Below the pieces are notes generated by a model, which made no database searches, had not been told where the DNA came from, and saw only the letters and a list, made by a program, of their open reading frames with translations. Positions 6,001-60,590 of a stretch of DNA of 64,000 nucleotides are shown piece after piece. The DNA lies in IMG/VR virus record IMGVR_UViG_3300013109_000495, positions 1 through 64,000 of that record. The stretch is one strand, 5' to 3'. The position numbers and the translations under genes were made by a program. This DNA comes from a virus. Every line of letters starts with the position of its first letter. The first letter of the stretch is position 1.

Positions 6001-9000
6001 ATCATTTGCTGATACACTTGTTGTAACTAATATATCATCTATTACAAATTTTGTATTATACATAGTAGCGGTATATGCCGCACCTGATCCTAAATTTTCA
6101 TCAATAAATCTTGTATCTTGTAAATCAAATGTTGTTTCTCCCAAATCAAATTTTTGTTCTCTATGATTTGACATTTTTTCTGCACCAATTACTAATCTTG
6201 TTCCTGTATCGTTTATATCTACTGTACTACCAAATTTTGAATTAGTTTGTTCGTCTGGTGCTTTTATAGTTTGTTGCAAAGTATATGTGTTTGTAGATCC
6301 GTCTGCATTCCATTTATAATAATAGATAGCACCTACATCTGCTTGGCTACTATCATCAAATCCTGGAGCACCAACTACTAAAACTGTGCCATCTTTAGTC
6401 ATTGTTAATGACTCTCCAAATTGAGTATTCAACGAAGAACCGTCTGCTGTTGTACCTGTCAATGTTTGTGCAAGAGCAAATGAATGACTTGTACTATCAT
6501 CACTTGATTGTGATATTCTTGTATAAATTTCTACTTTTCCTGCCTGCCCTGGTGCTTTAGAACTAACAGCAAGTATATCACCATTATCATTTGCTTGTAG
6601 TCGATGACCAAATCTTTTATTCTCACCTGGGTCAGAAGATGTTATTGTTAAATTTTGTGTCCATGTATCATATGTTGATAAATCTTCTCCTATACCCCAT
6701 TCATACATATAAACTGCACCTGCATTTGTACCTACTCCTGGTGCTGAAACAAATAGATATTTTACTGGTGTGCTTCTTACTGAACTTGCTCCTGGTTCAC
6801 AAATTTTATGTGCCCAGCCAAAGTTTTGCGATGCCGCATCAGTTGGTGGTAATTTTGTAACTAATGGATCATATTTGAAGGTTGATGTATTCCATAAAAA
6901 TATTTTAATTAAACCTGCATCTGAAAATCTTGTACTTCCGTCTGAACCAAGAGAATTGGCATAAGGTCCACCTGCTACAACAAAGTTTTCGTCGGTACTC
7001 ATTGATAATGAACTACCTAATCTACTTGTATTATCACTACCAGAAGTTGTTGTTACAGCTGATTGTGTTAAAAATGTTGTTCCTGCTGTACTTTCTCTTC
7101 TAAATAAAAAGTGTACTGTACCTTGGCCTTTTGTTGGCGATGATATAATAACTGATCGACCATCATTCCTTGCTACTATTTGATATCCAAAATCTTGTTC
7201 TGCTGTTGTGTCTGGTGAAAGCATTCTAATTTGCGTGTATGGATCTTGCTTTTCATAAACACGCCACAATCCAGATGCATCTGCATCTGCAAAAACTTTA
7301 TCACCTTCTTTTGATATACTATCATTTAAATCATTATAAACATTATAAGATAACACATCATTAACATTGTCCATTGATGCTAATCTTACAGATATAAATT
7401 TGTAAATATTACCATATGAATCTGCTGTTGACCCATCTTCTAATGGTGTGAAGGTTGAAATTTCAGAAATAGTGTCTGTATAATCTACAATCACAGTTTT
7501 ATGAGTTGGTGCCGACTGAACAGTATAAACTCCATTTAATTCTACAGTTTTAGAATTTGTTATTGCAAAATAATCTGCCATTGTTGTTGAACTGCCTGCT
7601 ACTAGATCATGTGAACTGGTAAATGTAATTTCTAATTGTGTATTACCATTAATTGGTTTTAATTGTGCAATTTTATATCCTGACAACGTTAAACGAAATA
7701 CGTCCCAATCGTTATTAGTTTTATTTGCTACCCAAATTAAATCATTTGAGCTAGTTAAGGTAAGATCCAACTCTAAAAGATCTTCTATGTTATATGCTGT
7801 ACGTTGTACTTGATTTAATTGTGGATAACCTGCATTTGGAAGAACTTGTACTGTATCTCTATCTACCCCTTCTGTAGCATAACTATATCTTGAAAACGTT
7901 GTACTGGCTATATATTCAACTGGCTTACTATATAAATTATTTTTATCAACATAAACAGATCTAGCATACTGTTGTGTCTCATTTGACGTATCAAATAATT
8001 CAATACTTTGTGAATTCGCTGTAAACTCGTCATCATCTAACACAATTTGAATACTTTCTTTTAAATCTGTGTTTCCAATTTTACCTGTACGAATCATCCA
8101 TTCTGGATATAAATCTAAAGATATATTTTGTCCTTCGTATTTTGCTTTTAATAACTTATCAATAGCATTTTGCGTACCTTTTTCTTGAATATATCCTTGA
8201 TAAAATTTATATTGTGAAATATCATTAACAAAAAGATTTTCTAAGTAATCTCTTGATTGGTATCCAATTAAATGTTGTGCCAATCCTTGCTGTGATTCAT
8301 CAAAATTATTTGATTCTAAACTATAAAAATCATTAAACCGTGAAATTTTATAATCAAAATTTGGAATTAATTGTAATTTAGGCTTTTCCGATTTTTGTAT
8401 CCAACTTTCATTAACAAAAGTCGTGCTTGAATTATGATTTATTTTTGCAACATAAAATTTTCCTTGATACTCTACTGTGTCACCAATTTTATAATCTGTA
8501 TTTTTTAACCAATATGTTACCTGTGCCGCATCAAACATAAACCCTGGAGCATGATAATCACCAGTCCAGTTGCTTGTTTTCCATCCTACTAATTTTAATC
8601 TTGCTTGACGATATCCAGTATATGGTTCATATATAATATCAGAGAACACTGTTGTATTATCAAACAATAATATATGTTCTTTTTGAACTGTGTTTAATGC
8701 TATATTATAAAGTCCAATATCAGGATCTTTAATCGAAATTTCAAAATTCTTCCCTAACCTTTTAGTACTAACATTTACAATATCAATTTTTCTTCCACCT
8801 GCATCTAACAAAGAATAATCTCCTGCTAGGTTTTTTAATTTTCCAACAATTGAATTCTCTGTGTTAAGCTGAAATCCGTTTGCTCCTGGAGATATTGTAA
8901 TTGCTGAACCCGGTGCCCAAGGTTGCGTTGTCCAAAATAAAAATTCTTTAACTGACAATCTCCAATTTAATACTTCTTTTATTTCATTTGAAAATTTATC

Positions 9001-12000
9001 ATAAACAAAACCTTTAGATTCTAACCATTTTCCATATCCCATTAAAAAATCTACAACTTGTTGAATTGTATCAAATACATGACCATATGGAATAACTTGT
9101 GTTGTTGTTTGATAATTCTGATAAATTATTGCTTCTGCATCTGATACAATAACTTTTTGACCTGTTATGCTTTTTATAGGATAATAAAAATTAAAATATG
9201 GTTTTGTAGTAGAATATCCTAATACTTTCCACCCACCTAATAATGTTGATCCATCAATTGATGTGTCTGTATTCTTTTCAATTAACACTCCTGAATAATT
9301 AAAACTGTTTACAGGATTTGACGTTCTAAATAATATTTTATAGTTTTCATCTGGTATAAATTTAGAACCTGATGTTGATCCTGGTGAAACTGAATCAGTT
9401 AAAACTTTTATATTTTCTTTATCAGTAAAGCCACCTAACTTATAAGCTAATTGAATATCTAATTGTTTTAATTTATTATAAAAGAAAGTTAATGGATCTA
9501 GATTTTTAAATATTAAATAATTTACTACAAATGGTTGATATCCCGCTGTTGTATATCTTGTTACAACTCCTGTTTGAATATTTGTAGAAGTTTCTAAATG
9601 ATAGTTTGCTGTACTTAATTGTTGTATAATATTTGTATCTTTACTAATTAAATTATTTGAAATATTTTTAGTTAATCTACTATTATCAAAAAATAAATTA
9701 AAAAATTTCGCTGGTTTAGTAAGAGCCAATGTTTTTATTACAGAAAAAGGATATGCACTTGATCTTCTCCAACTAGTTTCTGCTGGACCTTGGTCTCCAA
9801 ACTTCCATGCTTGGTTTCTGTTTGGCACATCAAATGTATTAATTAATTTTGCGGCGATCGGATCTAATAAATTTCCTGACGTATCTACTGGAATATATGA
9901 TGCAATACTTGATTTACCATATCTACCTAAATGCCCTGCAACTGCGTCCCATAGTATTGTGTTACCTGATGTATATGGTGCCAAACCATATGTACTTTCC
10001 CAAGTACTAGGTTTTTCTGAATATCCTAATATCTCCCACGGTCTTATATGTGGACTATCTGTATCATAAAAATATTTGTATATGCCTCTCCAGTGGCCTG
10101 GCAATTTAGCATCGTTTATTCTATCTGTTGATGCTGAATAATTATATGTAAACGGTGATCCTTCAACAAACGTTGTATTATTAATATATTGCACACCATT
10201 TCTGCCTGCCCATATATAAAAATCCGAACCCATTACATCATTTATTTCTGTTAATGTATATTCTGTTGACTTAAATGCTGACGGAACAACATCACCTATA
10301 TCTAATAATGTAGAATCATATTGTGTTTTAATATTATTATAAATTCTTTTTTCAAGTTCTAATATTAAATTGTCTCTTTCGTCTCCGTATGCTTTAATAA
10401 ATGAACCGTCGTGTTTTCTAATCATAGTTTGACTTATAAGATAAGTGTCGTCTGTAAATAATTCGGGTTTAAATTTTGGATACAATCCTAATTTAGTTGG
10501 TGTTGGAGGAATAAAACTTCCAGTTGTATCACTGTAATCTCTAATTTTAATAATATCTCCTGCAACAAGTGTAGATATGATATTAATACTATCATCGGTT
10601 GTACTAACAGTATATTCTGTACCTAAAATCAACTGTACATCATTTTTATAAACATATACCGCTCTATTATTTGTTTCAGTCATTGTATGCACTGAATCAA
10701 TTGCATATTCAGTTTCAGATGCATCTTGTACAGTATAAGTTCTTAATGAATAATTTTCTCCTACTCCAATCATATCTTCATAAAAGAAAGGAAATGTTGA
10801 CCCACGTCCTTGATTTATTGCTATAATGATTTCATCAACTCTATCCGCGGCAATCCCTTCATATGCTGTACCAAGTCCATATGTTAAAAATGAATTATAA
10901 AATTTTTCATACTCTTGATTACAATAATCTATTGCAATTAATACATTTGCTTCTTGGTCTATTAATCCAAATACAGCAGGTAATAATGTTCCTTCGTGCT
11001 GAACTATTAATCCTCCATTCAACGTTGCATCAGGATTATCTCTGAGCGATGAAGAACCTGGTATACTTCCTGTTATATCTGTATTCTTATCAAAAATATC
11101 TTTTACGTGTCCAAGTATCTGTCCATATGTAAATGTACCTTTTTGTATATTCAATGGATTAACAGATAAATTTTCTGGTATTTGGTATATACCTTTATTT
11201 GAAACTTTTTTAGTTGCTGAATATCCTACTAATTTAATTTGATCATCTACTTTTAATTCTTTTACAAATTGAATATATTTGTTTACTGTTCCATTAACTA
11301 TTGTATAATCTGTTGTTAAATTTTTTCTTATACCATTTACAGTTACTGAAATTTCTAAATCAGTAAGAGAAATAGAATTTTTATAAAAATCAATTTGAAA
11401 CAATTGTTTTTCTGTTTTGTCTACTATAAATGTTCTAACTACTCGTTGTTTACTTTCGTTGGTTCTTTTTACCCAAGCACTTTTTGAATTATGTGTTGTT
11501 AGACTAGTAGTATAATGCAAATGACCTTCAGAAAGATTTTTAGTTATAATATTATTATCCGTTCTATATGTAAATGTTCCTGCTGTATGATCTGATTCAA
11601 AAACTATATCACCAATATTATTAATTGTATTATATTTTACTTTTATACCTAATACTGTATCTGTAGTTGCTGTTGTTGACGTTTTATAAGCAAAAACATT
11701 TGCTCCACTAAAAGTCGAATTTGGATACGTTGTTGTATCATCAAATGATATATGATCATTATCCCACATACCAAACAGCGGTGCTTGATTTACTTTAATT
11801 TTTGTCTGCCCTGTTTTCCAAGTAGTTGTTGACTTATCATAATAATAAGTTTTACCTTGGTTTGCTGTTCCAAATTCAATAAAAATTGATTCGTTATCTG
11901 CAGGTACGGCATCTGTAGCTTCGGTAAGATTAATTACTGACGTTGAGTCTCCGGCTTGTACAAAATTAATTACGTAAATTTTATTTTTTACAAGTGTATC

Positions 12001-13503
12001 GGTGTCTGCAGAAAATACTACTCTCATTCCATCTGCTACTGCTAATCCATCTATAATATAACCTGTTTGTGCAACTACATTAGAAAATGCATCAGTTGTA
12101 ACTGTGTCAAATAATGTTACAGATGTTTTTGCCACAGTACCATGATTATATAAAGCAAGTCCCGAATCAAATTCTATAATTGGCCTTTTAGCTCTATCAG
12201 TTTCTAATAAATTAGGTGTATAACCATTAGCATCTGCTGTTTCGTCAATTACAGATTTATGAAACCATCTATTATATCTTGACCAAGCATTTTGGTCTCT
12301 TGAATCTCTTTTAATTGTAATATAATCTTTTGTTTCCGGACGATAAAATGCTTTTGCATAAGGTCTAGAATCATACGCAATACTATCAAATAAAATAGTT
12401 GTTTCTGTAGCATATGATTCGGGAGTTATTAAATCTTCTATATTTGTAAATGTAATTGAATCTCCAACTCCTTCAACATAATATTCTTTACCTGCATATG
12501 TGCTATCAGTAACATTAGATTCAAATTTAATTTTCATTCCATTTGATAAATTTAATGTTCTTAACGCATAATTTTTTGTACCTAAAATATCATTAGCAAC
12601 GTCAATTTTTGTTGTTGAACTTATCGTTCCAACAGTAAAAATTCCATACATACTATCATGATTGCCACATTGATAATAAAGTACATCTGGTGCCGTAGTT
12701 GGTACTGTAAAAGTAACTATACCCGAATCTGTTGCTGGGTTTATTACACCTGTTGTATATAAAGTAGAAGTTGATCCATCTTCTGCAACACCTTGACGAT
12801 ATGGTTCTGTCATTATATGGAATGGATGGCCTTTTGCGTCTACTTTAAATTTATAAGTATTACCTCTATATAATTTTATTTGAGGATTTCTTTCACTTTC
12901 TTTTGTTCCAAACTTCCATGCTCTTGTCGTACTTCCATCATCTGGCCATGCTGTTACATCAATTTCAACTAACGCCGTTGGTCCTACTGAATCTAATGTT
13001 ATAGAATTTGGACCTTCGGGCAACCAATAATATTCTCTATAATTGATTAACTTATCTAAATCAATGGCCGGGTTCCAAGAGTATATAACTTCTTTGTTTA
13101 GTCTATCATGATTATCTACATTACCTCCAAAATATTTTATTTGATTAATATAATCATCATAGGTACCTGAAAATTTTACTTGGTCTTCTGGATTAACTGA
13201 TGTTGTGTCTTTATCTGTGTAAGTTACTGCAGGCTCTAATTGATATGCCATTCTATCTCTATTAGTTGCAGACAGATATGTGTCAGTTATTTGTCTTGTA
13301 TAAGCATCTTGTCTACCAATATATCCATCTAATCTTTGTAATGCACCTTTTTGAATTAATGGATCAATAGTACTTGATAAAAATCTTGTGTTGCTATCTG
13401 TTCTATAGAATACAGGTAAGTGTGCGATTGATCTGCGTAACTCAATTCCATCTTGAGTTACAACTTCTTGAACTGATTGTGAATTGGTTGCTTTATCTAC
13501 CAT
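1..13503 (-). CDS. Giant virion structural protein, 3' end outside window
   Basis: The frame opens at the ATG at 13503 and stays open to the window edge, giving at least 4501 codons; the C-terminus is missing. The start overlaps the gp6 stop (TAATG), so it is the last known gene of the baseplate operon and is probably a baseplate-attached fibre or appendage. Residues about 215-290 resemble a cupredoxin fold with H226/H229 and C279-x2-H282-x2-M285. Residues about 2100-2430 hold several FG-GAP-like blade motifs (FG..v....dG..l.vGAP). Many copies of a 'GDGST..F' beta module follow at about 3400-4150. From about 4220 to the edge there are roughly 49-residue propeller-type repeats (F..DGTKMFV.G...D.INEYTLST). 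No catalytic domain is evident. The protein is structural by context; host binding is inferred. Confidence 0.82.
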   Translation of the reverse strand, partial: MVDKATNSQSVQEVVTQDGIELRRSIAHLPVFYRTDSNTRFLSSTIDPLIQKGALQRLDGYIGRQDAYTRQITDTYLSATNRDRMAYQLEPAVTYTDKDTTSVNPEDQVKFSGTYDDYINQIKYFGGNVDNHDRLNKEVIYSWNPAIDLDKLINYREYYWLPEGPNSITLDSVGPTALVEIDVTAWPDDGSTTRAWKFGTKESERNPQIKLYRGNTYKFKVDAKGHPFHIMTEPYRQGVAEDGSTSTLYTTGVINPATDSGIVTFTVPTTAPDVLYYQCGNHDSMYGIFTVGTISSTTKIDVANDILGTKNYALRTLNLSNGMKIKFESNVTDSTYAGKEYYVEGVGDSITFTNIEDLITPESYATETTILFDSIAYDSRPYAKAFYRPETKDYITIKRDSRDQNAWSRYNRWFHKSVIDETADANGYTPNLLETDRAKRPIIEFDSGLALYNHGTVAKTSVTLFDTVTTDAFSNVVAQTGYIIDGLAVADGMRVVFSADTDTLVKNKIYVINFVQAGDSTSVINLTEATDAVPADNESIFIEFGTANQGKTYYYDKSTTTWKTGQTKIKVNQAPLFGMWDNDHISFDDTTTYPNSTFSGANVFAYKTSTTATTDTVLGIKVKYNTINNIGDIVFESDHTAGTFTYRTDNNIITKNLSEGHLHYTTSLTTHNSKSAWVKRTNESKQRVVRTFIVDKTEKQLFQIDFYKNSISLTDLEISVTVNGIRKNLTTDYTIVNGTVNKYIQFVKELKVDDQIKLVGYSATKKVSNKGIYQIPENLSVNPLNIQKGTFTYGQILGHVKDIFDKNTDITGSIPGSSSLRDNPDATLNGGLIVQHEGTLLPAVFGLIDQEANVLIAIDYCNQEYEKFYNSFLTYGLGTAYEGIAADRVDEIIIAINQGRGSTFPFFYEDMIGVGENYSLRTYTVQDASETEYAIDSVHTMTETNNRAVYVYKNDVQLILGTEYTVSTTDDSINIISTLVAGDIIKIRDYSDTTGSFIPPTPTKLGLYPKFKPELFTDDTYLISQTMIRKHDGSFIKAYGDERDNLILELEKRIYNNIKTQYDSTLLDIGDVVPSAFKSTEYTLTEINDVMGSDFYIWAGRNGVQYINNTTFVEGSPFTYNYSASTDRINDAKLPGHWRGIYKYFYDTDSPHIRPWEILGYSEKPSTWESTYGLAPYTSGNTILWDAVAGHLGRYGKSSIASYIPVDTSGNLLDPIAAKLINTFDVPNRNQAWKFGDQGPAETSWRRSSAYPFSVIKTLALTKPAKFFNLFFDNSRLTKNISNNLISKDTNIIQQLSTANYHLETSTNIQTGVVTRYTTAGYQPFVVNYLIFKNLDPLTFFYNKLKQLDIQLAYKLGGFTDKENIKVLTDSVSPGSTSGSKFIPDENYKILFRTSNPVNSFNYSGVLIEKNTDTSIDGSTLLGGWKVLGYSTTKPYFNFYYPIKSITGQKVIVSDAEAIIYQNYQTTTQVIPYGHVFDTIQQVVDFLMGYGKWLESKGFVYDKFSNEIKEVLNWRLSVKEFLFWTTQPWAPGSAITISPGANGFQLNTENSIVGKLKNLAGDYSLLDAGGRKIDIVNVSTKRLGKNFEISIKDPDIGLYNIALNTVQKEHILLFDNTTVFSDIIYEPYTGYRQARLKLVGWKTSNWTGDYHAPGFMFDAAQVTYWLKNTDYKIGDTVEYQGKFYVAKINHNSSTTFVNESWIQKSEKPKLQLIPNFDYKISRFNDFYSLESNNFDESQQGLAQHLIGYQSRDYLENLFVNDISQYKFYQGYIQEKGTQNAIDKLLKAKYEGQNISLDLYPEWMIRTGKIGNTDLKESIQIVLDDDEFTANSQSIELFDTSNETQQYARSVYVDKNNLYSKPVEYIASTTFSRYSYATEGVDRDTVQVLPNAGYPQLNQVQRTAYNIEDLLELDLTLTSSNDLIWVANKTNNDWDVFRLTLSGYKIAQLKPINGNTQLEITFTSSHDLVAGSSTTMADYFAITNSKTVELNGVYTVQSAPTHKTVIVDYTDTISEISTFTPLEDGSTADSYGNIYKFISVRLASMDNVNDVLSYNVYNDLNDSISKEGDKVFADADASGLWRVYEKQDPYTQIRMLSPDTTAEQDFGYQIVARNDGRSVIISSPTKGQGTVHFLFRRESTAGTTFLTQSAVTTTSGSDNTSRLGSSLSMSTDENFVVAGGPYANSLGSDGSTRFSDAGLIKIFLWNTSTFKYDPLVTKLPPTDAASQNFGWAHKICEPGASSVRSTPVKYLFVSAPGVGTNAGAVYMYEWGIGEDLSTYDTWTQNLTITSSDPGENKRFGHRLQANDNGDILAVSSKAPGQAGKVEIYTRISQSSDDSTSHSFALAQTLTGTTADGSSLNTQFGESLTMTKDGTVLVVGAPGFDDSSQADVGAIYYYKWNADGSTNTYTLQQTIKAPDEQTNSKFGSTVDINDTGTRLVIGAEKMSNHREQKFDLGETTFDLQDTRFIDENLGSGAAYTATMYNTKFVIDDILVTTSVSANDDFGRGVCVIDQTVFVGAPEDEGNTSADGSSMVSNDGTVTCFDLTTNDTYAWKEISSETALIDINKLGQVFHFNKNSKQILNYFDLYDPVKGRILGIADREINIKTTWDPASYNAGTNPKEKVAWAEDHIGEIWWDLSKVKWLWYEQGDQEFKINNWGKVFPGSSIDIYEWTESTMLPHEWNDLAGTTPGSSQGISGIPLHPDNSHYTVKQIYNSALDGFVNYYYYWVRNKQSMPTNSVVVRKNTASYISNIILNPLNSDIRHYSITDVNKMLVFGAKQDLSNDEVILNVDTRTNTFEGGAHSIWKLVREGDKFYRPGTQIETRWWDSLIGSNLIGDIVPDINLPVNEKYGNNIRPRQSWYVNRFNALKEIIDYANSILKVNELSGTINLDNLNSEDPEPTAESLEWDAKVATYAELTYIDTRDLSGTLNYLVEADETVNGYWSIYKWDGSTWSRTKVQTFNTKNYWSYIDWYKTTGTMVHDENTSIDKQVTYQYELDALTLATGKHVKVTSADTGGWKIFMKTSTGWENVATENGTLRLSTKLYDYTQDATGFADADNFDDNFFDQEPAIETRKILTALRDDLFINELAVEYNTLFFIGLKRVLSEQTYVDWMFKTSFINARNSVRTLDQRKTYTTGTDAWIESYINEVKPFHTKLREYKLGYTGTDTEDGINTDFDNPPFYDATTGTIRNLNVLGDATKQTEYPHKFWSEYYKKHVASITVTNGGSGYTAVPTVTILGGTTGSTGPFQIYDTAASGASAGSLGYYYPLYTTELQSNIADTQNGGTGTSRQFTFDSYSGTFYQPTSYVTYAQLIKSATYKMYTTPDTTAATATAIVKNGSVSAITVTGIGANYTSTPTVIISGGLVDGTNPTDQAKAYANLGNDLVRDFSTTVKFDRISSTSRVQDWTALSSYAYGDLIRYKNQLYKATSAFTATTDFDDNDGNVYKVYGDETGLSAADRTKGFYTPASGMPGNELSQLMTGVDYGGTMVTGLLFTQGQGWDKSGWYDYAWDHYGTSKIKTFYGDGNTVAFTFTTAPATTEVYQIYVAGTLTTDVFRGDGSTTTFTLSSAPADGAVIKFILFDDDGVLTPTDDRTLDSIVKGGLFNSALGTSPSDILLEGDEFVSPDTSYAPEEAVPGQMFDTVDIKVYTSPESGAPFITTKNYTGNGSTTAFSTGEYPGTLASVIVSVDGVTKKITTDYTINVANKTVTFGSAPANNSIISIRTFAISGENYRVLDTYTGDGSTVAYTTSTRENFNLDSSNSQIYITINGVPTTAYTTTSLAKSIIVTFDSAPAANAYVQVAGFNQTSATRAYAQIMSGTITYDGSTTRHTLTYPPGAIGPYSGLTLVEVNGKMLRGPDNTYYLGDGSTYNYGVVTGLEDDSTVDPSKTISAESDVQVFVNGVQKLLNTDYTVNIGAQTISMVTAPTVTDVIAISTLVDNHYYNEGNDIILIPSRITSPYSLSSSDVITVTTFNNALGTKLRREVLEGRSTGIFALRFDPLNAGYTTVWLNGTQLIKDHDYTLTGNIVTVVGKTITASDRLDVLYFALGSAVGATGFRIFKDMLNRTFYKRISKTSTTEIANDITPESSTIQVKDGTKLPEVTGTTPGVIFVDKERIEYFVKNGDTLSQLRRGTLGTGIKEHSSGVEVVDASGIQTIPYADTVYTDTHTGDGSTVGFTTTQALTSASQLDIFIGGQRLLLTSEDGSTINYSIGGFTNISSATFVRASTSLNSTDNDVRDVKWNNDGTKMFMLGRANDSVYEYSASTAFDVSTITYVRLLDIGVVSATQGDDAANSIEFNTDGTKLFVLGQGQDKVDEYALSTSFNLSTASFTHSFSVASQELLPYGLAFNNDGTKMFVTGWAGDDINEYTLSTGFDVSTATYSQNFSVSAQAGKPSAVQFNNTGTKMYVLNGTGAPTIFQYTLITAFDISTASYENTSFSTLTEEANPRGFCFNNDGSQLFVCGFTGDDINEYTCNAGIILSSPPADGTQVKILHKKGQ

Positions 13504-17001: not shown

Positions 17002-17009
17002 TATTTATA
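17002..17009 (-). promoter_or_regulatory. T4-type late promoter octamer TATAAATA for gp6
   Basis: A perfect TATAAATA on the minus strand lies in the gap between gp25 and gp6. If it occupies about -13 to -6, transcription starts near 16996, giving a leader of about 11 nt before the gp6 ATG with no clear Shine-Dalgarno sequence. Confidence 0.65.
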
Positions 17010-17419: not shown

Positions 17420-20067
17420 TAATGTAATCTCCTAAATTCTACGTCTACTTTACTATAATCTACTATATAAAAACCTGTATCTGTCATTTCTTTTGCCCAT
17501 GGAACTTCTTGTGCTATTACACCTTGATACATTCCATCTAAGTGTTTATATTTAAATGAATAAATGTTGGTACCTAACTGTGACTTACCAATTAATTGTA
17601 TATCTTCTTTTAACCGTACATCACTAAAAAATTTCGTTATATGACCTATACCTGCTGATGCCCAATTTCCTACTTTAGCAAAATTAGTCGCTATCTTAGC
17701 CATAAAAGCTCCTTGTACAGGAGTTCCGGTACCATGTAACGATTTTCCTATATAACCTGATCTTCCTATTCCAAATTTTTGAGCTAACGAAGTTATTTGT
17801 GTTACTCCTGTAATATTTCCTGCCATAACATTTTTATAAACGTTTGTCACAGCACCAGCATCTTTGAAAATTGAACCAACTGATGACGCTGAAATTACTC
17901 CTGTTATTTTGTCATTAACTATATTAGTCACGTATGATGTAGCTAAAGATTTTGCATTATCTTTTACGTATTGTAGCTCGTTTATTTTGCCGTGTACTGA
18001 TTGTCCTATTGAAAACAATTGTCCAGTTTGATTAACAAATATATTATCTTTAAATAAATTTGTTGCTTTACCAGATACTGATTCAATAACTTGATTTGTT
18101 AAAGTATTTGTAAAATTATTTTTAATAGTATTTTTAGTATCACTTAATGAGAAATTTTGAATTTTATTAGATATACTTTTTGCCGTGTCCCAACGATCTC
18201 CAGTTTGACTTACAACATTAAAAGTTTTGTCATATTTTGTTCCGTAAGTTTCTAATAATTGTTTAGCTTTTTTAACACTAGTTGAATTTCCCATTTCTTT
18301 TTTTAAATATCTTTCTGCGTCTGCCTGCCATTGTCCTAATCTAATAGATTCTATACTTGAAGTTCTATTTCTTTGTTCTACAAATTCTACTGTTCCTGGT
18401 GTTGAACTTAATCTAGACCACATTTTTGTATCCATTTTGTCATCATCTATTTGAGACGGTACTACTCCTTGACTTGAAAATCCAGAAAATCTTGGCATTG
18501 GTTCATGTGTAACAAGTCTATGTACAGTAGTTTTTGTTTTTCTTGTAAAAGATTGTAAAGGTTCTAAACCTTTCTTAGACAATTCAACATCACCTTCTTC
18601 TCTTGGCAACATTCCTGTTTGTTCTTTACTCAACCAAGTTGGTCCCCAAGATGAACTTGCACCTATTGAATTAAGGTGTACTTGTGATCCTGCTAAATGA
18701 ACTGGGCCGCCTGCGCCATGTAATTGCTGATTGTCTGAATATGATAGAATTCCTGACTTACCATATGTCATAACAGGACCTTGTTGTGAAGATGTAAAAA
18801 CTCCTTTATCTCCCATATGCATCTGATAATCTGCAGATGTAATAATTTGTCCAGGAGATGCTGGAATTTTTACATCACCTTTGGCTTTATGTCCTTTTGT
18901 AACTGCAATATCGGTATCTTTATAAAGTACTTCATCCGTTCCTGTGGCCGCCATTCTAATTTCATTTCCAGCACTCATATTAATATTTGCATCACTATGT
19001 AAATTAAAATCACCTTCTGTTCTTAAATTAATTCCTCCAACACCAGAATAAACGTCAATTCTACCTTCTTTGTTCATTTCAATCCAAGCATTACCTGAAC
19101 CATTAGCAATATAAACAACACCATCGGTGTCGTGCATTAAAAGTTGATGTCCTGATGCTGTTCTTAATCTTACTAATTGATTATCTCCGGCGGCATCTCC
19201 GTCATCCATTGTAAAAACATGACCGGGATCTCTATCTGTTGGAATATATGCAGACCGACTTTCTTCAGTAACTAATATTGGTAATTTCCTACTGTCTGCT
19301 CTAATTCTACCTGGTGTGTTTATTCCAAATACTGCACTAGGAGCCTCTCTTTGTGCTGATGATGATGTTGTACCTCTAATACTATCTTGTACTAAACCTT
19401 GTTTCTTTAATAGTTCTGCACTTCTATCATTGACTGGTAATGTATAAGTGCTATAAGTTCCAATTTTTGCATTTGTATACATTACTCTATTAACTTCTCC
19501 GGCTGGTACATAATTTGTACCATAATCTTGTTTGGCTTCTTTTTTTGTTATTATATTTCGTCCTGCAGTTTTTTCTTGTACTCCTGTTTCAGGATTCAAT
19601 ATAAGACCACTCCCTGTTTCTTCTGCTCCTGATTGTTCTGATGCCGCTAAACCCGGAACTTGATGGTTTGTTTGTGGTTGTTGTACACACCCTATCCAAT
19701 ATGCATTTTCTTCTGTTTGGATTCCTTGTGCAAATATCACCATTACTGCTGTATCAATATCAGGTGGTACTGCCCACATACCATAAGAGTGAGAATTTGT
19801 TTTATAATCATATGCATTTGTTGAACTAACTGCCTGTGGACTTTTAGAACCATAAAAAGGTGAAAGATAGCTACACCACATTAACTGACTAAAAATTGGA
19901 TCGTCTGTACCAGTTCTTGCAGGAATATTCACACCTAATCTACCCATTTTTAATGGATCGTCGTTGCTTTTTACTATCCCTATATACGGTCCAGGACTTC
20001 GTTCGACATATGACTTTAAGTCAGTTTTTTGATTTATACTAGATACGTCACCTCTATGATCTGTCAT
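17419..20067 (-). CDS. 5: Baseplate hub / central spike protein gp5 with C-terminal chaperone-like domain, no lysozyme domain seen
   Basis: 882 residues. The N-terminal part (about 20-130, 'GPYIGIVKSNDDPLKMGRL' to 'PPDIDTAVMVIFAQG') is the gp5/VgrG-type OB-fold. Residues about 295-400 carry spike-like repeats (GRIDVYSGVGGINLRTEG, NINMSAGNEIRM) expected for the beta-helical needle. A long Ser/Asn-rich region follows. The last 68 residues start with SDVRLKEDI at about 815 and contain a G-V-I-A-Q-E-V segment, the pattern of the short intramolecular-chaperone (peptidase S74-like) domain found at the end of many phage fibres. I see no T4-type lysozyme domain between OB fold and needle. It lies 3 nt after the hub gene. 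Confidence 0.85.
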   Translation of the reverse strand: MTDHRGDVSSINQKTDLKSYVERSPGPYIGIVKSNDDPLKMGRLGVNIPARTGTDDPIFSQLMWCSYLSPFYGSKSPQAVSSTNAYDYKTNSHSYGMWAVPPDIDTAVMVIFAQGIQTEENAYWIGCVQQPQTNHQVPGLAASEQSGAEETGSGLILNPETGVQEKTAGRNIITKKEAKQDYGTNYVPAGEVNRVMYTNAKIGTYSTYTLPVNDRSAELLKKQGLVQDSIRGTTSSSAQREAPSAVFGINTPGRIRADSRKLPILVTEESRSAYIPTDRDPGHVFTMDDGDAAGDNQLVRLRTASGHQLLMHDTDGVVYIANGSGNAWIEMNKEGRIDVYSGVGGINLRTEGDFNLHSDANINMSAGNEIRMAATGTDEVLYKDTDIAVTKGHKAKGDVKIPASPGQIITSADYQMHMGDKGVFTSSQQGPVMTYGKSGILSYSDNQQLHGAGGPVHLAGSQVHLNSIGASSSWGPTWLSKEQTGMLPREEGDVELSKKGLEPLQSFTRKTKTTVHRLVTHEPMPRFSGFSSQGVVPSQIDDDKMDTKMWSRLSSTPGTVEFVEQRNRTSSIESIRLGQWQADAERYLKKEMGNSTSVKKAKQLLETYGTKYDKTFNVVSQTGDRWDTAKSISNKIQNFSLSDTKNTIKNNFTNTLTNQVIESVSGKATNLFKDNIFVNQTGQLFSIGQSVHGKINELQYVKDNAKSLATSYVTNIVNDKITGVISASSVGSIFKDAGAVTNVYKNVMAGNITGVTQITSLAQKFGIGRSGYIGKSLHGTGTPVQGAFMAKIATNFAKVGNWASAGIGHITKFFSDVRLKEDIQLIGKSQLGTNIYSFKYKHLDGMYQGVIAQEVPWAKEMTDTGFYIVDYSKVDVEFRRLH

Positions 20068-23595: not shown

Positions 23596-23603
23596 TATTT
23601 ATA
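23596..23603 (-). promoter_or_regulatory. T4-type late promoter octamer for the baseplate operon
   Basis: A perfect TATAAATA on the minus strand, 43-51 nt upstream of the gp48-like start. It would give a leader of about 38 nt that includes an AAGGAAA ribosome-binding site, so this operon head has a conventional leader, unlike several other late genes here. Confidence 0.68.
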
Positions 23604-23685: not shown

Positions 23686-24666
23686 ATGAAACGAGTGAAA
23701 TATTTAAATAACCGAGATCTGTTGGCCCAAATACACGCCAGCAAAAATACATTTTGTTCTTATGTTACAGATGAGGACTCACAATACGATATAATTGTAC
23801 CTGATCTTAAAAAAATTAATTCTATCGCAATAGCAAAAGCAAGAAAAAACAAAAGTAAAAGATTAACACAAGAAGCATGGCAACAAGCTAAAGATAGCGG
23901 ACTTAAAAAAATTAAATTAAGTGACTACACTGTAAACACTCGTAAAATTGATAAAACTAGTTTAGTATTTAGAGTTATGACATTTGGTCATGTTCCTTTA
24001 GATCCTACTAGAAAGAAAAATCCTAAACAAGAATCTGATCATCATCAAAAAGTAAATTTTCCTCCGTTCCTTCATTATCGTCTTGATAATAAAGGTAAAC
24101 CAAAATGCGTAGGTAAATCACATTGGATTGGTGGATTAGAAAACGGACATTTTGATTGCAATCATGGAAAAATTACAAACAGTCTAGCAATGATGTTTAT
24201 GAAACTTTGCGAAAGATATGGTACTAGAGCAAACTGGAGAGGATATACCTACAATGATGAAATGCAATCACAAGCATTGATGCAATTATCACAAATTGGT
24301 TTACAGTTTGATGAAAGCAAATCAGAAAATCCATTTGCATATTATACAGCGGCAATTACAAATTCATTTACAAGAATATTAAACATTGAAAAGAAAAACC
24401 AAAATATACGTGACGACATTCTTGAGCAACATCATATGACGCCTTCGTCTACTCGACAAAATATTAATACATCTAATACAATGGCTTATAAAAAACATAT
24501 AACAACTGCACACGGACCGGTTAAAACTGTAAACAAAACTGGAATAATGAAATTAAACAAATTAATGCGTAAAAAAGGAGAATTAACACTTAAAGATTTT
24601 GATTCAGTAGGATACAAAAAAATAGATATGAGTAAACATAAACCACCAATAAAGAAAAAATACTAA
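23686..24666 (+). CDS. 55: Putative late-transcription sigma factor (gp55-like)
   Basis: 326 residues. Residues about 180-245 contain 'RYGTRANWRGYTYNDEM', then 'ENPFAYYTAAITNSFTRI' followed by IEKKNQ, which resembles the conserved core of marine T4-like gp55 (a region-2-like helix pair that recognises the late promoter -10 octamer). The protein is longer than T4 gp55 (185), with a basic N-terminal extension and a basic tail. It heads a plus-strand cluster with gp47 and gp46, a common position for gp55 in T4-like phages. Many TATAAATA octamers in the window make a gp55-type factor expected. The identification rests on one block of similarity, so it is moderate. Confidence 0.58.
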   Translation: MKRVKYLNNRDLLAQIHASKNTFCSYVTDEDSQYDIIVPDLKKINSIAIAKARKNKSKRLTQEAWQQAKDSGLKKIKLSDYTVNTRKIDKTSLVFRVMTFGHVPLDPTRKKNPKQESDHHQKVNFPPFLHYRLDNKGKPKCVGKSHWIGGLENGHFDCNHGKITNSLAMMFMKLCERYGTRANWRGYTYNDEMQSQALMQLSQIGLQFDESKSENPFAYYTAAITNSFTRILNIEKKNQNIRDDILEQHHMTPSSTRQNINTSNTMAYKKHITTAHGPVKTVNKTGIMKLNKLMRKKGELTLKDFDSVGYKKIDMSKHKPPIKKKY

Positions 24667-39361: not shown

Positions 39362-39369
39362 TTTAAATA
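39362..39369 (+). promoter_or_regulatory. Late-promoter-like octamer TTTAAATA
   Basis: The octamer overlaps the first possible ATG (39369) of the sulfotransferase gene. With -13 at 39362, transcription would start at 39375, exactly on the next in-frame ATG. Confidence 0.45.
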
Positions 39370-40966: not shown

Positions 40967-40974
40967 TATAAATA
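40967..40974 (+). promoter_or_regulatory. Late promoter octamer TATAAATA
   Basis: A perfect octamer 16 nt before the ATG at 40983. The predicted start site (about 40980) leaves a leader of about 3 nt. Confidence 0.65.
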
Positions 40975-40982
40975 ATACTAAC

Positions 40983-41696
40983 ATGGCAAAAACTTTACGT
41001 ACATCAGGTGATTACACCATTAAAACTGGCACAGGTGCTAGTGGGTCAAATTACGTTAATCTTGACTCAAGTAATACAAGAGTTATGGGTAATTTAATTG
41101 TTGATGGTACACGAACTGAATTGAATACATCAACTTTAAGCGTTGAAGATTCCTCATTACTTTTAAACAGAAATGCCTCAGGTGCTGATATTGACTCTGG
41201 TGTAATGATAGAGCGAGATGGTTCTAATAATGCGGCATTCTACTGGAACGAAGGTGATGATACTTGGAGAGCAGTTACAACTTCGTCAGGACCAACAGCA
41301 ACAGCAATTGCCGATACAGCATTAGCAAAAATTCAGGTGGCGGAACCAGCGGCAAATTCAGATGCGGCTACAAAAAATTATGTAGATACCACAGCTAGTG
41401 GAGCCATATTATCAGGTTCAACAAACAATCAGGTTACAACTGTAACAGGTGCGAATGCTATAACTGGTGAAGCAAATTTAACATTTGACGGAACAACTTT
41501 AGGGGTAACAGGTGTTATTGATGCTGATTATGTAAGAATTTTTGATAATGAAATTACAACAAATGCCACAGATGCCAATTTAGAAATTTCAGCTAATGGC
41601 TCTGGAAATGTGGTAATTAATGGCATCAATTTTTTGACATCTGGAGAAATGATAAGTAAGAGTAAGGCTACGGCATTAGCGATAGCATTAGGATAA
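40983..41696 (+). CDS. Modular fibre/appendage protein
   Basis: 237 residues. 'MGNLIVDGTRTELNTSTLSVED' at about 35-56 is nearly identical to a segment of the 336-residue protein at 50668, showing a shared module. 'SGVMIERDGSNNAAFYWNEGDDTW' is shared in style with the 983-residue protein. 'AEPAANSDAATKNYVDTT' is a tail-fibre neck-like segment that often precedes repeats. No chaperone or receptor domain is visible. It has a near-leaderless late promoter, and the next gene follows after 5 nt. Confidence 0.66.
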   Translation: MAKTLRTSGDYTIKTGTGASGSNYVNLDSSNTRVMGNLIVDGTRTELNTSTLSVEDSSLLLNRNASGADIDSGVMIERDGSNNAAFYWNEGDDTWRAVTTSSGPTATAIADTALAKIQVAEPAANSDAATKNYVDTTASGAILSGSTNNQVTTVTGANAITGEANLTFDGTTLGVTGVIDADYVRIFDNEITTNATDANLEISANGSGNVVINGINFLTSGEMISKSKATALAIALG

Positions 41697-43053: not shown

Positions 43054-43920
43054 TTATTGAATAATTCCAAAAGGACGCCAGTTACCTGGTTTTCCACCAT
43101 TAACACATACCCAACCAACTGGTTTATTAATTGAGGGCTTTTCATTCCACACAATTGATCCTGTGTTCCAACGACCTTCGCGAGGATGTTTCTCTCCTGC
43201 GGCAAATGTTCTTTCAGCAAATTTAATATTGCCATCAACTTCTAATGCTTCTCCTGGATATTTGACACCAACACCAAGTTGACCATACACAGATAATTTA
43301 ACAGGCTTACCTGTTTCTGATCCAACTACTACATCACCATTAGCACGACAAGTTAATCTTGGCGTAAAATCTGTACCAATAGCAAATGCAACGTGAGTAT
43401 GTGTTCCAACAAATGCATTCGCTTCTTGCATAGTTGTAAGAATTTCATAACCACCTGAATTTACTGAAAAGTCTGCCGATGGTGCAGTTGTGTTTACTCC
43501 TACTCTTCCATCTGCAACATATAAAACATTTCTTACTTGTAAATTTTTAAGTATACCTAACTCTTGCAAATAACTTTTTCTAACAGATTTTCCTAACGAT
43601 TCTTTCCAAATTACTTCATTATGATTAACCATAATTGCATCTTGTACATTTAATTTTGGAACTGATGCTTGTACATATTGTAAATTTTCTACCTTTACTG
43701 TACCTTTAATGTGTAAATCTTTTGCAACTTCAACATAGTCGTCTTTAACTATAATTTGTGTTTCATTTGATTCATCTTTAATACCTGTTGATGTAAAGTT
43801 TGTAATTGTTCCCCCATCAATAACATCACCTGATACAGAATTTTTTTTGAAATCAACTTGTGATACTCTTACCGTAGATTCAGAAACTTTTTCAATTTTA
43901 TTAAGGGGTAATAGTGTCAT
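43054..43920 (-). CDS. Tail-fibre-like structural protein
   Basis: 288 residues. Blocks 'VGVNTTAPSADFSVNSGG', 'THTHVAFAIGTDFTPRL' and 'GKPVKLSVYGQLGVGVKYPGEALEVDGNI' are typical of phage fibres that use 'G(I/V)GT..P...L.V.G' repeats. The C-terminal 50 residues are Trp/Gly-rich ('GSIVWNEKPSINKPVGW', 'GNWRPFG'), resembling a small receptor-tip or cap domain. It is the only minus-strand fibre gene in the cluster, has its own late promoter octamer 16 nt upstream, and is convergent with the FkbM gene. Confidence 0.66.
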   Translation of the reverse strand: MTLLPLNKIEKVSESTVRVSQVDFKKNSVSGDVIDGGTITNFTSTGIKDESNETQIIVKDDYVEVAKDLHIKGTVKVENLQYVQASVPKLNVQDAIMVNHNEVIWKESLGKSVRKSYLQELGILKNLQVRNVLYVADGRVGVNTTAPSADFSVNSGGYEILTTMQEANAFVGTHTHVAFAIGTDFTPRLTCRANGDVVVGSETGKPVKLSVYGQLGVGVKYPGEALEVDGNIKFAERTFAAGEKHPREGRWNTGSIVWNEKPSINKPVGWVCVNGGKPGNWRPFGIIQ

Positions 43921-43928: not shown

Positions 43929-43936
43929 TATTTAGT
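43929..43936 (-). promoter_or_regulatory. Late promoter octamer ACTAAATA
   Basis: Minus-strand octamer 16 nt from the ATG at 43920. The predicted message has a leader of only about 3 nt. Confidence 0.5.
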
Positions 43937-43962
43937 GCGGGTTATCTACCGTACGAATAATT

Positions 43963-43970
43963 GGTAAATA
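43963..43970 (+). promoter_or_regulatory. Late-promoter-like octamer GGTAAATA
   Basis: Plus-strand octamer 21 nt before the ATG at 43984, giving a leader of about 8 nt without a Shine-Dalgarno sequence. It is divergent from the octamer at 43929. Confidence 0.4.
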
Positions 43971-57155: not shown

Positions 57156-58601
57156 TCAAGGAGTTGTTGCATCTGCACTAGGATCATAACCAGTATTTCC
57201 GCCACCATCTATTATAATAGACCATTTACCAGCAGTATAAATTCCTTCATATGATTTTACCCATTCCGTACCATTAAAACGATATTGAATTCCGGTGTTT
57301 ACATTAGTAACATAATGTTGCGTTGAATCTGGATTTGATGAATCAAAAACTTTTAACCATTTGCTTTGAGAAGTATTATATTCAATAATATCACCTACTG
57401 AAGCAATTAATGTTCCCCAAGTTGAACTTTGTACTGTTGCAGTAGAGTCACCTATCTCATCTATAATTAAATATCTATCACCGTTTGCTGGAGTGGGTGG
57501 AGCAAATGTTGTAGGATTAATAATTTTTAAAACCGACGTTAATGTATTTGCAGGAATTGTATCAGTATCAATATTAAACAATAATATTGTATCGTCTAGT
57601 GTTGTAGTTGCAATAGTACCAATTATTTCACTTCCTGTAGGTAGTGTTAATCTTATTTGAGATAAACCATTTGTAACCGTACCATATTGATCTAACAAAA
57701 CTTTCCAGTTAACAGCAGGACCAAAAGTTTCAAATGGATCAAAATTTGTTGGGGCATTAGCACCTGAATAGTATCCATCTCCGCCCGATGTTACACTCGT
57801 ACCTGTACTTCCTAACAATCTTAATTGATTTCCAGTAACTAATAATCCATAATTGTTTGGTGTTATATAACTTTTTGAAATCATAGAACCATCGATTAAT
57901 CCTTTTACAATTCCGCCATCATCGTCATAAACGCTCATAATAATTTTTTGTATTACACCTAATTTTGATACTTTAACAGGTGGAGATAACCATATAGGAA
58001 TAGAAAATTGTAATGTTGCAATATCAATTTCAGTATCTGCGCCAATTGGAATTGTTCTTGAACTAAACGTTGTGCTTGTTAATTCAACATAACTTAAACT
58101 AGTCCAATCTATATAATTGTCTGTTTTTTGTATTTCAAAATCTGGATTAAAAAGATATAATATTTGTTCCATTATTTGTAATTTTTGATCTGTATTAGTT
58201 GTCCAAATATCTGCTGACACCTCTAATCTAAAAGGAGATGGCATTACTTTTTCAACTGTATAACCAGCACCTAATTGGTTATCATATTGTTTTGTAACTT
58301 CGTTATAATTTCGTTCTTTTAAATGTTGCTTTTGAATATGATAAGGATTTTGCATTCTATCTCTTTCATAATTTAATTCTCTTACATAACAAGCAATTCT
58401 TGGTGCATATTGTAATGCGTTTTCAGAATTATTTCTAATAATATTTGCAACTTGTCTAGTTGGATCTCCATATACAACCGGTACCGCTCTTAAAGTAACT
58501 GTATCATCTTTAGCTCTTCCTGTTTCCACCGAAAAATTACTCAAAATACGAATAAATTGAGTTATAAATTTTCTTATTTGTCCGTCGTAAAAATGTAACA
58601 T
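57156..58601 (-). CDS. 15: Tail sheath stabiliser/completion protein gp15
   Basis: 481 residues. The N-terminal 230 residues contain 'VPVVYGDPTRQVANIIRNNSEN', 'APRIACYVRELNYERDRM', 'GAGYTVEKVMPSPFRLEVSADIWTTNTDQ' and 'QTDNYIDWTSLSYVEL', in the order typical of marine T4-like gp15 (272 residues in T4). gp15 caps the tail tube and sheath and joins the tail to the head. The C-terminal 250 residues are an extension with 'NGDRYLIIDEIGDS' and 'TGIQYRFNGTEWVKSYEG', a beta module I have seen only in marine phage proteins. Its start overlaps the gp14 stop by one base. Confidence 0.78.
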   Translation of the reverse strand: MLHFYDGQIRKFITQFIRILSNFSVETGRAKDDTVTLRAVPVVYGDPTRQVANIIRNNSENALQYAPRIACYVRELNYERDRMQNPYHIQKQHLKERNYNEVTKQYDNQLGAGYTVEKVMPSPFRLEVSADIWTTNTDQKLQIMEQILYLFNPDFEIQKTDNYIDWTSLSYVELTSTTFSSRTIPIGADTEIDIATLQFSIPIWLSPPVKVSKLGVIQKIIMSVYDDDGGIVKGLIDGSMISKSYITPNNYGLLVTGNQLRLLGSTGTSVTSGGDGYYSGANAPTNFDPFETFGPAVNWKVLLDQYGTVTNGLSQIRLTLPTGSEIIGTIATTTLDDTILLFNIDTDTIPANTLTSVLKIINPTTFAPPTPANGDRYLIIDEIGDSTATVQSSTWGTLIASVGDIIEYNTSQSKWLKVFDSSNPDSTQHYVTNVNTGIQYRFNGTEWVKSYEGIYTAGKWSIIIDGGGNTGYDPSADATTP

Positions 58602-59761
58602 TAATTGTCAGCCTTTGGTTTTAATGCATCTGTTAATGATTGCCGCTGTTCTACTGTTAATCCATTTATTGTAGTTGAGCTTGACTGATTAACAAATTTA
58701 GTTTTCCAATTAGCTCTAGTATCTGTATTTGTTGTAGTTAACCTAACTGAATCTTCAATCTTAACCCATCTGATTCCGTCAAAACGAAATAATCTATTTG
58801 GTAAAAAGTCTGTTCTTAAAAAATAATCACCATCGGCATAATTGTCTGGAAATGCTGTTCCAAATCCTGCTGGATGTCCGTTTGGTGCAACACCATCACC
58901 TCCCACATAAAAACCATAATGTGAACCTGCAGGTGTATCTACTACTGCATTTATTGGTTTATCTGAGATTCTTTCTGTTGAATTTACATTATCGGTTCTA
59001 ACATTTCCTCGTTCATCAATTGGTGTAACATAATATTGTTTAAAATTAAATCCTGATTTAGGTGAATCTGCTTCTGCTTGTGCAACTATTTGATCACTAA
59101 TTTCTTTTTCTTTATTATATGTACTCATGTAACTTGCAAGAGAACCTGTATTAGTTGCATCACCAATTATATCTCTAAATTCTTGTGAATCTACTAACGT
59201 TTTCATTTTTAATCTTAATAAATGTGGCCACCAAGTTTGTGAAAATCCTTCTGCCGCTCTGTTTACATCTTCTATTACATAATATCTTTTTAATGCAATT
59301 GGAATAGATGCATCTAACGAAAAATCTTCTTTCATGTGTGGAAATTCAATAACATCACCTGACATTGGTTTTCTACCTATTCTTTCAACAACATCATTCA
59401 TATGCACAGTTAAAAATATAGTATCATTTTGTAAAAACATACCAAATTGTGAAAGATTAAAATCTATATCTTGCACATTATAAATTCCACGAAACGTATA
59501 GATATCTGATGAGTATTTTCTATCTCTATTTTCTAAAAATAATAAGTCTTGTATAGTAGTTTCGTTAATATTGCTCTGAGCACGTTGTGGTTGGGATGGT
59601 GATGGTGCACCATCTTTAGTCTCATCACTTTGATCATATGGTCCTAAATATTTGTGGAAATGTAAATCAGTGCCTCCAACCGTAAACATCTCTTTAATAG
59701 TACGATCAAAGAATTTATAATCATTTCCTTTTTCTGGTTTATATAGTGACAATCTTGGCAT
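58601..59761 (-). CDS. 14: Neck protein gp14
   Basis: 386 residues, T4 gp14 being 256. 'DLLFLENRDRKYSSDIYTFRG' (quoted), 'DFNLSQFGMFLQNDTIFLTVH' in part, 'MSGDVIEFPHMKEDF' and 'EGFSQTWWPHLLRLKMK' form the conserved core of marine gp14 homologues. gp13 and gp14 form the neck that closes the filled head and accepts the tail. Its C-terminal third has 'FPDNYADGDYFLRTDFLPNRLFRFDG', an extra domain. It is divergent from gp13 and preceded by a TATAAATA octamer only 15 nt from the ATG. Confidence 0.8.
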   Translation of the reverse strand: MPRLSLYKPEKGNDYKFFDRTIKEMFTVGGTDLHFHKYLGPYDQSDETKDGAPSPSQPQRAQSNINETTIQDLLFLENRDRKYSSDIYTFRGIYNVQDIDFNLSQFGMFLQNDTIFLTVHMNDVVERIGRKPMSGDVIEFPHMKEDFSLDASIPIALKRYYVIEDVNRAAEGFSQTWWPHLLRLKMKTLVDSQEFRDIIGDATNTGSLASYMSTYNKEKEISDQIVAQAEADSPKSGFNFKQYYVTPIDERGNVRTDNVNSTERISDKPINAVVDTPAGSHYGFYVGGDGVAPNGHPAGFGTAFPDNYADGDYFLRTDFLPNRLFRFDGIRWVKIEDSVRLTTTNTDTRANWKTKFVNQSSSTTINGLTVEQRQSLTDALKPKADN

Positions 59762-59768
59762 ATACCTA

Positions 59769-59776
59769 TATTTATA
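59769..59776 (-). promoter_or_regulatory. Late promoter octamer for gp14
   Basis: A perfect TATAAATA on the minus strand. Taking its first base as -13, transcription starts at about 59763, 2 nt before the gp14 ATG, so the message should be leaderless or nearly so. Confidence 0.65.
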
Positions 59777-59790
59777 GATAGTAAAAGAAC

Positions 59791-59798
59791 TATAAATA
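59791..59798 (+). promoter_or_regulatory. Late promoter octamer for gp13
   Basis: A perfect TATAAATA on the plus strand that overlaps the first possible gp13 ATG (59798). Taking its first base as -13, +1 is 59804, exactly the second in-frame ATG. Confidence 0.62.
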
Positions 59799-60565
59799 TG
59801 AGTATGTCAGAACTACAAACAGGTCAACAAGAAGTATTTGAGTACGTTAAAGCAAATCTCGGCGAGGGAATGATTGACGTTGAATTAGACCCTAAACACT
59901 ACCAAATAGCACTCGAAAGAGCAATTAATAGATATAGACAGCGTTCTTCAAACGCAGTTGAGGAATCTTATGCTTTTTTAGTACTTAAAGAAAATCAAAA
60001 TACTTACATTTTACCTGACGAAGTAATTAATGTTAGAAAATTATTTCGTAGAACGGTTGGCTCTCGTACAGAAGGTGGCGAAGGTGGAACACTTTTTGAA
60101 CCGTTTAATCTTGCATATACTAACACATACTTGTTAAGAGCGGGAGCAACTGGAGGTCTTGCAACTTACTATGCTTTTGCATCTTATCAAGAATTAATTG
60201 GAAAACTATTTGGAAGTTTTATTCAATTTCATTTTGACGTAGCAACTAAAAAACTTACAATTACACAAAGACCACGTGCAGATAACGAAAGTGTTTTAAT
60301 GCATACTGACAACTTTAGACCGGATATAACACTCTTTAAAGACATCTATTCAAAACCATGGATTAGAGATTACACACTAGCAATATGCAAAGTAATGTTA
60401 GGTGAAGCAAGAGGTAAATTTAATACTATTGCTGGTCCACAAGGTGGTACATCACTTAATGGTGCTGATCTAAAACAAGGCGGATTAGCTGATATGGAAA
60501 AACTTGACCAAGAAATTAACAATTTCGCAGAAGGTGGCACACCACATAGTTTTGTTATAGGTTAA
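59798..60565 (+). CDS. 13: Neck protein gp13
   Basis: 255 residues (T4 gp13 is 309). 'DVELDPKHYQIALERAINRYRQRSSN' (quoted in part, about 26-51), 'EESYAFLVLKENQNTYILPDEV' and 'IRDYTLAICKVMLGEARGKF' are the typical marine gp13 blocks. It forms the neck with gp14 and terminates DNA packaging. The start at 59804 (MSELQT) is favoured over 59798 because the late promoter octamer covers the first ATG. The divergent gp14 lies 36 nt away. Confidence 0.86.
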   Translation: MSMSELQTGQQEVFEYVKANLGEGMIDVELDPKHYQIALERAINRYRQRSSNAVEESYAFLVLKENQNTYILPDEVINVRKLFRRTVGSRTEGGEGGTLFEPFNLAYTNTYLLRAGATGGLATYYAFASYQELIGKLFGSFIQFHFDVATKKLTITQRPRADNESVLMHTDNFRPDITLFKDIYSKPWIRDYTLAICKVMLGEARGKFNTIAGPQGGTSLNGADLKQGGLADMEKLDQEINNFAEGGTPHSFVIG

Positions 60566-60582
60566 TTCATTATCAATTCATT

Positions 60583-60590
60583 TTAAATAC
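60583..60590 (+). promoter_or_regulatory. Late-promoter-like octamer TTAAATAC
   Basis: It lies 15 nt before the ATG at 60598, predicting a leader of about 2 nt. Identical to the octamers at 34301 and 48862 (minus). Confidence 0.45.

Follow-up and report, generated by a model that had tools for sequence, protein, structure and literature searches.

Probable divergent T4-type late promoters at predicted leaderless spacing between the neck genes of a marine phage

Introduction

How are two virion genes transcribed and translated when they diverge from a gap of only 36 nt, and each strand of that gap carries a complete late-promoter octamer? The neck genes of the IMG/VR virus record IMGVR_UViG_3300013109_000495 raise this question. 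The initial annotation, made from the letters alone, read the gap as a pair of leaderless late promoters for gp13 and gp14, and here we follow this reading through the whole record, its relatives and several named phages.

The late transcription of phage T4 is textbook knowledge, and its messages carry Shine–Dalgarno (SD) leaders. The T4 late promoter is described as an 8-bp box whose first base lies at −13, roughly a helical turn ahead of the transcription start, with variation at −13 and no conserved −35 box (PMC2988020). This promoter class is already known, as are leaderless messages in bacteria and phages. Bacterial leaderless genes are reported to have a TA-like signal approximately 10–12 nt before the start (PMC3160421), 171 leaderless starts, all AUG, were mapped in Sinorhizobium meliloti (PMC3616915), and phage transcripts are often leaderless according to the AR9 paper (PMC5312081).

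Materials and Methods

The record comprises 121,819 bases (121.8 kb), and the window, the whole stretch of DNA in which the neck pair was annotated, is its first 64,000. One ORF caller was used throughout, and d denotes the number of nucleotides between the core TAAATA and the start codon. The relatives of gp13 were the best 80 of at least 597 IMG/VR loci, two of which (L025 and L079) were left out because of too little upstream sequence; the 78 of 80 that remained represent 54 sequences distinct at the promoter and 60 distinct over a longer stretch. In the gene-by-gene comparison of relatives, which included the neck pair, counts refer to distinct upstream sequences per gene, and matches were dropped when they started after query residue 6, had <60 nt upstream or had no start codon nearby. 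Comparators were one or two stretches of 41–50 kb per named phage.

Results

The neck gap holds one perfect TATAAATA per strand

The gap measures 36 nt between the ORF starts called at 59761 (minus strand) and 59798 (plus strand). It carries one outward-facing TATAAATA per strand, at 59791–59798 (plus) for gp13 and at 59769–59776 (minus) for the gp14-like gene, exactly as the initial annotation had placed them to the base. A spacer of 14 nt (59777–59790) separates the octamers, leaving 18 nt between their TAAATA cores. Setting the octamer at −13 to −6 predicts that minus-strand transcription starts at 59763, 2 nt ahead of the ATG, and that plus-strand transcription starts at 59804, which is the A of the second gp13 ATG; the arithmetic of the initial annotation was thus correct on both strands. 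The initial annotation also stated that an SD sequence cannot fit, and an SD-like tetramer is absent at both starts. Its description of both messages as leaderless stands for gp13, which is predicted to be strictly leaderless, and needs adjustment for the gp14-like message, for which a leader of 2 nt is predicted here and mostly 3 nt among relatives.

The spacing between the two cores is 18 nt in 50 of the 54 distinct relatives and 19 nt in the other 4. Since the length of the spacer is fixed in spite of a mean identity of 57% among distinct relatives with equal-length spacers, its constancy hints that the geometry of the promoter pair may matter. On the minus strand, the core lies 8 nt from the ATG in 49/54 distinct relatives, 7 nt in 3/54 and 6 nt in 2/54, and in a second set of relatives the gp14-like core was at d = 5–8 in all 53 distinct upstream sequences.

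The second ATG of gp13 is the probable start codon

The gp13 gene, a head–tail adaptor Ad2 (phrog_211, E = 1.9e-31), is placed here at 59804–60565 on the plus strand, the ORF having been called from 59798. Its first ATG (59798–59800) overlaps the octamer and, on this prediction, precedes the 5′ end of the message; the second (59804–59806) would be both the +1 and the true start codon. The plus-strand TAAATA core and the second ATG are invariant in 60/60 distinct sequences, with the spacer free to vary, and the core is exactly d = 5 from the second ATG in 54/54 distinct relatives; these relatives are one clade, and the counts are not independent. The first ATG is replaced by ATC, ACG or ATA in 9/54 distinct relatives (11/78 loci). 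Because the core and the second ATG are constant and the first ATG and spacer are variable, it is very probable that translation of gp13 begins at 59804, and the earlier view that the ATG at 59798 is a part of the promoter agrees with its loss in these relatives. The start codon was ATG in 54/54 gp13 and 53/53 gp14-like relatives, and an SD-like tetramer was found in 0/54 and 0/53 of them, respectively.

The gp14-like gene is named by position

The ORF at 58601–59761 (minus strand) encodes a virion structural protein (phrog_11591, E = 6.3e-85), for which no Pfam match was found. Comparison with the known gp14 profile by hhalign gave a probability of 1.9% with E = 0.026, in an alignment that is colinear over 106 columns, so that the name gp14 given by the initial annotation is not established. 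The assignment is plausible from position, as the ORF adjoins a tail sheath stabiliser of the gp15 type at 57156–58601 (minus strand; PF16724, E = 2.6e-27), the second gene after the minus-strand promoter.

Placement of the core before start codons in the record

The number of octamers was rejected as evidence because it is below chance, with 7 copies of TATAAATA in the window vs. 12.3 in shuffles and thus no enrichment; the signal lies in their placement. All 9 copies in the whole record are noncoding (9/9) vs. 0.4 expected by length, and 42/116 TAAATA cores are noncoding vs. 5.1 expected, at a noncoding share of 4.4% by our own ORF calls; this length-based expectation is somewhat low, noncoding DNA probably being richer in A and T. 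Each of the 9 copies faces a start on the same strand, and the leaders predicted for them measure 0, 1, 2, 2, 3, 11, 38, 38, and 58 nt. TAAATA ends 5–8 nt before the first ATG of 16/123 called genes, compared with a mean of 1.1 and a maximum of 5 after 300 rounds of dinucleotide shuffling of the upstream regions, a control that allows for the A/T richness. The mirror motif ATAAAT was dropped as a control because it is contained in TATAAATA.

The record has 33 motif-bearing starts, and 19 of these are at d = 5–8 (binomial 1.7e-12), with 6 at 5, 4 at 6, 4 at 7, and 5 at 8; the other 14 are distributed over 9–45, and none of the 33 is at d = 0–4. The same lower limit of d = 5 was observed in every gene set of relatives examined, and this edge matches the rule described for T4, with the octamer read from −13 (PMC2988020). 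An SD-like tetramer was present in 1/19 near-promoter genes (d = 5–8) vs. 44/104 others (Fisher p = 0.0015), and in 39/90 motif-less genes of the record. Among the near-promoter genes are gp13, the gp14-like gene, a gene resembling a tail tube gene (66029), the terminase (71228), the virion structural proteins at 68794, 72836, and 100301, and genes without assigned function. Intrinsic terminators occur just upstream of 3/16 near promoters examined (39375, 40983, and 66029), where readthrough is unlikely as the terminator directly precedes the promoter; the near-promoter genes 68234, 68794, 71228, and 72836 closely trail same-strand genes, and readthrough is also possible there. Judged by these placements, the predicted leaderless spacing is a genome-wide pattern, of which the gp13/gp14-like pair is one case.

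Several further near promoters lie in the window. A late octamer at 40967–40974 (plus) directly follows an intrinsic terminator and stands 8 nt from the ATG at 40983; among 17 distinct relatives of this gene (from all 66), the core was at d = 7 in 3, at 9–10 in 4 and at 20–24 in 4, and 6 had no core, so that the near spacing is poorly kept at this gene. The core search also found the octamer-like GTTAAATA at 34300–34307 (plus), 5 nt before the ATG at 34313, and ACTAAATA at 43929–43936 (minus), 8 nt before the ATG at 43920. The double-ATG design of gp13, an overlapping ATG followed by an ATG at d = 5, is repeated twice with TTTAAATA, at 39362–39369 (plus, after a terminator; first ATG 39369, second 39375) and, from the core search, at 28301–28308 (minus; first ATG 28301). 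Another TTTAAATA at 60582–60589 (plus) is 8 nt before the ATG at 60598, and its core is within d = 5–8, at 8 nt, in 5/5 distinct relatives. Exact copies of TATAAATA with longer predicted leaders are at 17002–17009 (minus; 11 nt before ATG 16985), 23596–23603 (minus; an ordinary 38-nt leader before ATG 23552), 30318–30325 (plus; 58 nt before ATG 30389), and 30351–30358 (minus; 38 nt before ATG 30307).

Some other features were observed in passing. Divergent TAAATA pairs also occur at 43929–43970 of the window, between the starts 43920 and 43984 and with a spacer of 30 nt, and at 111295–111325 of the record, with a spacer of 19 nt. The gene at 27849–28301 (minus), which has a double-ATG late core, encodes a protein of 150 aa with matches to profiles of phage NAD synthetase and of homing endonucleases. 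An ORF of at least 4501 codons at 1–13503 (minus) runs off the left end of the window and probably encodes a giant structural protein.

Placement in relatives at other late genes

The core was at d = 5–8 in 61/61 distinct relatives of the terminase (from the best 80 of at least 600), 55/55 of the 72836 gene, 25/25 of the 66029 gene (from the best 80 of 385), 28/29 of the 68794 gene, and 51/59 of the 68234 gene, the remaining 8 of which had no core. On the same contigs, the sheath gene had an SD site in 36/36 cases, with the core at d = 29–41 in 32 and absent in 4, and the 76944 gene had no core and an SD site in 20/20. The phage thus appears to use both modes, as all but one of the near-promoter genes lack an SD-like site and the sheath and 76944 genes have one.

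Tail tube 1 (65331) is a real complication. In 21 distinct relatives, its core was at d = 10–16 in 18, including 13 at d = 10, and an SD-like site was found in 21/21; in most relatives displayed, GGAG follows directly after the core (65315–65331 in the record). By the T4 rule this GGAG would be at −5 to −2, outside the message, so either the message of tail tube 1 would come from readthrough, or the +1 would differ there.

Late sigma factor and host clues

A gp55-type late sigma factor, which probably recognises the late promoters, is encoded at 23686–24666 (plus strand; phrog_12791, E = 1.8e-81; phrog_234, E = 2.6e-24). The sigma gene was not found in 9 other contigs of relatives, all of which are fragments, and a search for the clamp phrog_223 gave no match in the 121.8-kb record, itself a fragment; the control matched nowhere either. 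The protein bS21, a candidate aid to leaderless initiation, had no match in the record, and HTVC008M has a bS21 copy according to its annotation only. In the host search by tRNA-Asp, a 56-nt stretch matched nothing in the genome collection. A 37-nt exact stretch of the phage tRNA-Asp (114429–114504 of the record) occurs in only 4 contigs, all Patescibacteria, which was considered too weak to name a host.

Comparison with named phages

The proportion of motif-bearing starts at d = 5–8 was 0/14 in T4, 0/6 in Syn9, 0/12 in P-SSM2, 0/4 in phiM12, 0/9 in PA5oct, 0/12 in CBB, 0/10 in Atu_ph07, and 0/9 in Phosso, or 0/76 over these eight phages of known host, the closest named relatives included. It was 10/22 in HTVC008M, 6/29 in Mosig, and 3/27 in Melnitz, with the near starts of HTVC008M and Mosig mostly at d of exactly 5. 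HTVC008M, which has genes with TATAAATAGNNNNATG, is a cultured stand-in; the divergent late octamers at its gp2/gp4 (18922–18937 of the stretch examined) stand back to back, 4 nt separating their cores, each of which has d = 5. HTVC008M and Mosig, which are Pelagibacter phages, belong to a different family (Kyanoviridae) and have largely different genes.

In the T4 late region (49 kb), 13 of the 14 motif-bearing starts, none of which is at d = 5–8, have an SD-like site. T4 also has a divergent late pair, gp4/gp53 (3321–3400 of the stretch examined), crossed in a 47-nt gap so that, by eye, each of its messages keeps an SD leader. In Atu_ph07, Phosso, and PA5oct, inspection by eye placed the same core farther upstream of the gp13 and gp14-like genes, with an SD site in between; from this arrangement, either the marine lineage lost the leader or the others gained it. 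The jumbo phage CBB is reported to have a late ATAAATA motif before structural genes and a gp55-like sigma factor, and its authors state that they found no gp33 or gp45 (PMC5259590). It has a homologous gp13 and gp14-like genes, with 0/12 motif-bearing starts at d = 5–8 in 50 kb, and leaderless messages have 0 occurrences in the CBB paper (PMC5259590).

Discussion

In this study, we consider it highly probable that the two neck octamers act as late promoters of the T4 type, diverging from each other at a spacing that would leave the messages leaderless or nearly so, and that gp13 starts from its second ATG. They resemble T4 late promoters in the octamer TATAAATA, in the late virion genes that they precede and in the gp55-type sigma factor encoded in the record; however, the usual T4 layout, with an SD leader between promoter and start, is not found at the neck pair. 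The octamers, their spacings and conservation, the sigma gene and the lack of SD sites can be read from the DNA directly, and from them we infer the exact +1 and leaderless translation. In the model that we favour, host RNA polymerase with the phage gp55-type sigma factor would use both promoters, which in the marine lineage would have been shifted onto the start codon. Transcription of gp13 would begin at the A of its second ATG, the ATG at 59798 being a by-product of the promoter sequence, and the gp14-like gene would be transcribed from a point 2 nt ahead of its ATG; both messages would be translated without an SD sequence, via direct recognition of the 5′-terminal AUG. The same arrangement would hold at many other late genes, both here and in the relatives, with the sheath gene and tail tube 1 keeping SD leaders. 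RNA polymerase covers roughly 70–80 bp. As the predicted neck starts are 41 bp apart, two polymerases could presumably not occupy the pair simultaneously.

The same rule has been applied to cellular genomes, where a message was taken to be leaderless when a −10 element lay roughly 10 nt ahead of its start codon (PMC3160421). The cases described there involve host sigma-70-type signals, whereas here a phage late sigma factor and virion genes would be concerned.

Other explanations were weighed against this reading. Real promoters that initiate a few bases ahead of the start position used in T4, giving leaders of about 5–10 nt and perhaps use of the first gp13 ATG, would retain in the message the GGAG that follows the tail tube 1 core in most relatives displayed and that the T4 rule loses. 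We regard this as improbable nevertheless, since the first gp13 ATG is missing in 9/54 distinct relatives and the second is invariant, the sharp cut-off at d = 5, seen across the record and all gene sets of relatives, fits the T4 start, and a start upstream of −5 would fall inside or beside the octamer. It is more doubtful still that the octamers are not working promoters and that transcripts begin further upstream, with SD-independent translation of leadered messages. Many genes lack an SD site anyway (39/90 motif-less genes have an SD-like tetramer), and readthrough from neighbours is possible at some near-promoter genes, but at the neck a start upstream of the gap would sit within the opposite gene, three other promoters come straight after intrinsic terminators, and the octamer cores are invariant next to a variable spacer.

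A further notion, that TAAATA at 5–8 nt from the ATG is no promoter and serves translation as an A/T-rich ribosome-binding element, draws on a spacing like that of an SD site. This is hardly credible, because the sheath core on the same contigs is 29–41 nt upstream (32/36) of genes that all have an SD site (36/36), the core is farther upstream in T4 and other named phages, and it fits the T4 late octamer in a phage with a gp55-type sigma factor.

What appears to be new, as judged by sequence comparison, is that T4-type late promoters occur systematically, in two groups of marine phages, at a spacing that predicts leaderless messages; in the open-access literature, searched through titles and the beginnings of abstracts, no report of leaderless late messages in T4-like phages was found. 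For cyanophage Syn9, a single-base map of transcripts reportedly exists. The shift likely arose twice, in the marine jumbo-type clade and in the Pelagibacter phages, as the other sampled Kyanoviridae (Syn9 and P-SSM2) and the named jumbo relatives are without it. More broadly, we propose as a tentative idea, to which we give slightly less than even credence, that within the T4 superfamily, phages of the open ocean brought their late promoters up to the start codons on two or more separate occasions, with the result that many of their virion mRNAs lack a leader and late infection depends on leaderless initiation, and that the neck pair is a mutually exclusive, coupled bidirectional unit by virtue of its fixed 18-nt core distance. 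This idea can be tested now, because HTVC008M and Mosig have cultured hosts.

Late-promoter prediction is reported to have been unsuccessful in pelagimyophages (PMC7029224), and promoters that abut the start codon would be one possible reason. For annotation, the pattern would supply a start-codon rule, namely the ATG 5–8 nt after TAAATA. If the proposal is true, a late promoter that fixes the start codon couples the transcription start to the translation start, which suggests that the hosts of these phages can translate leaderless messages well late in infection.
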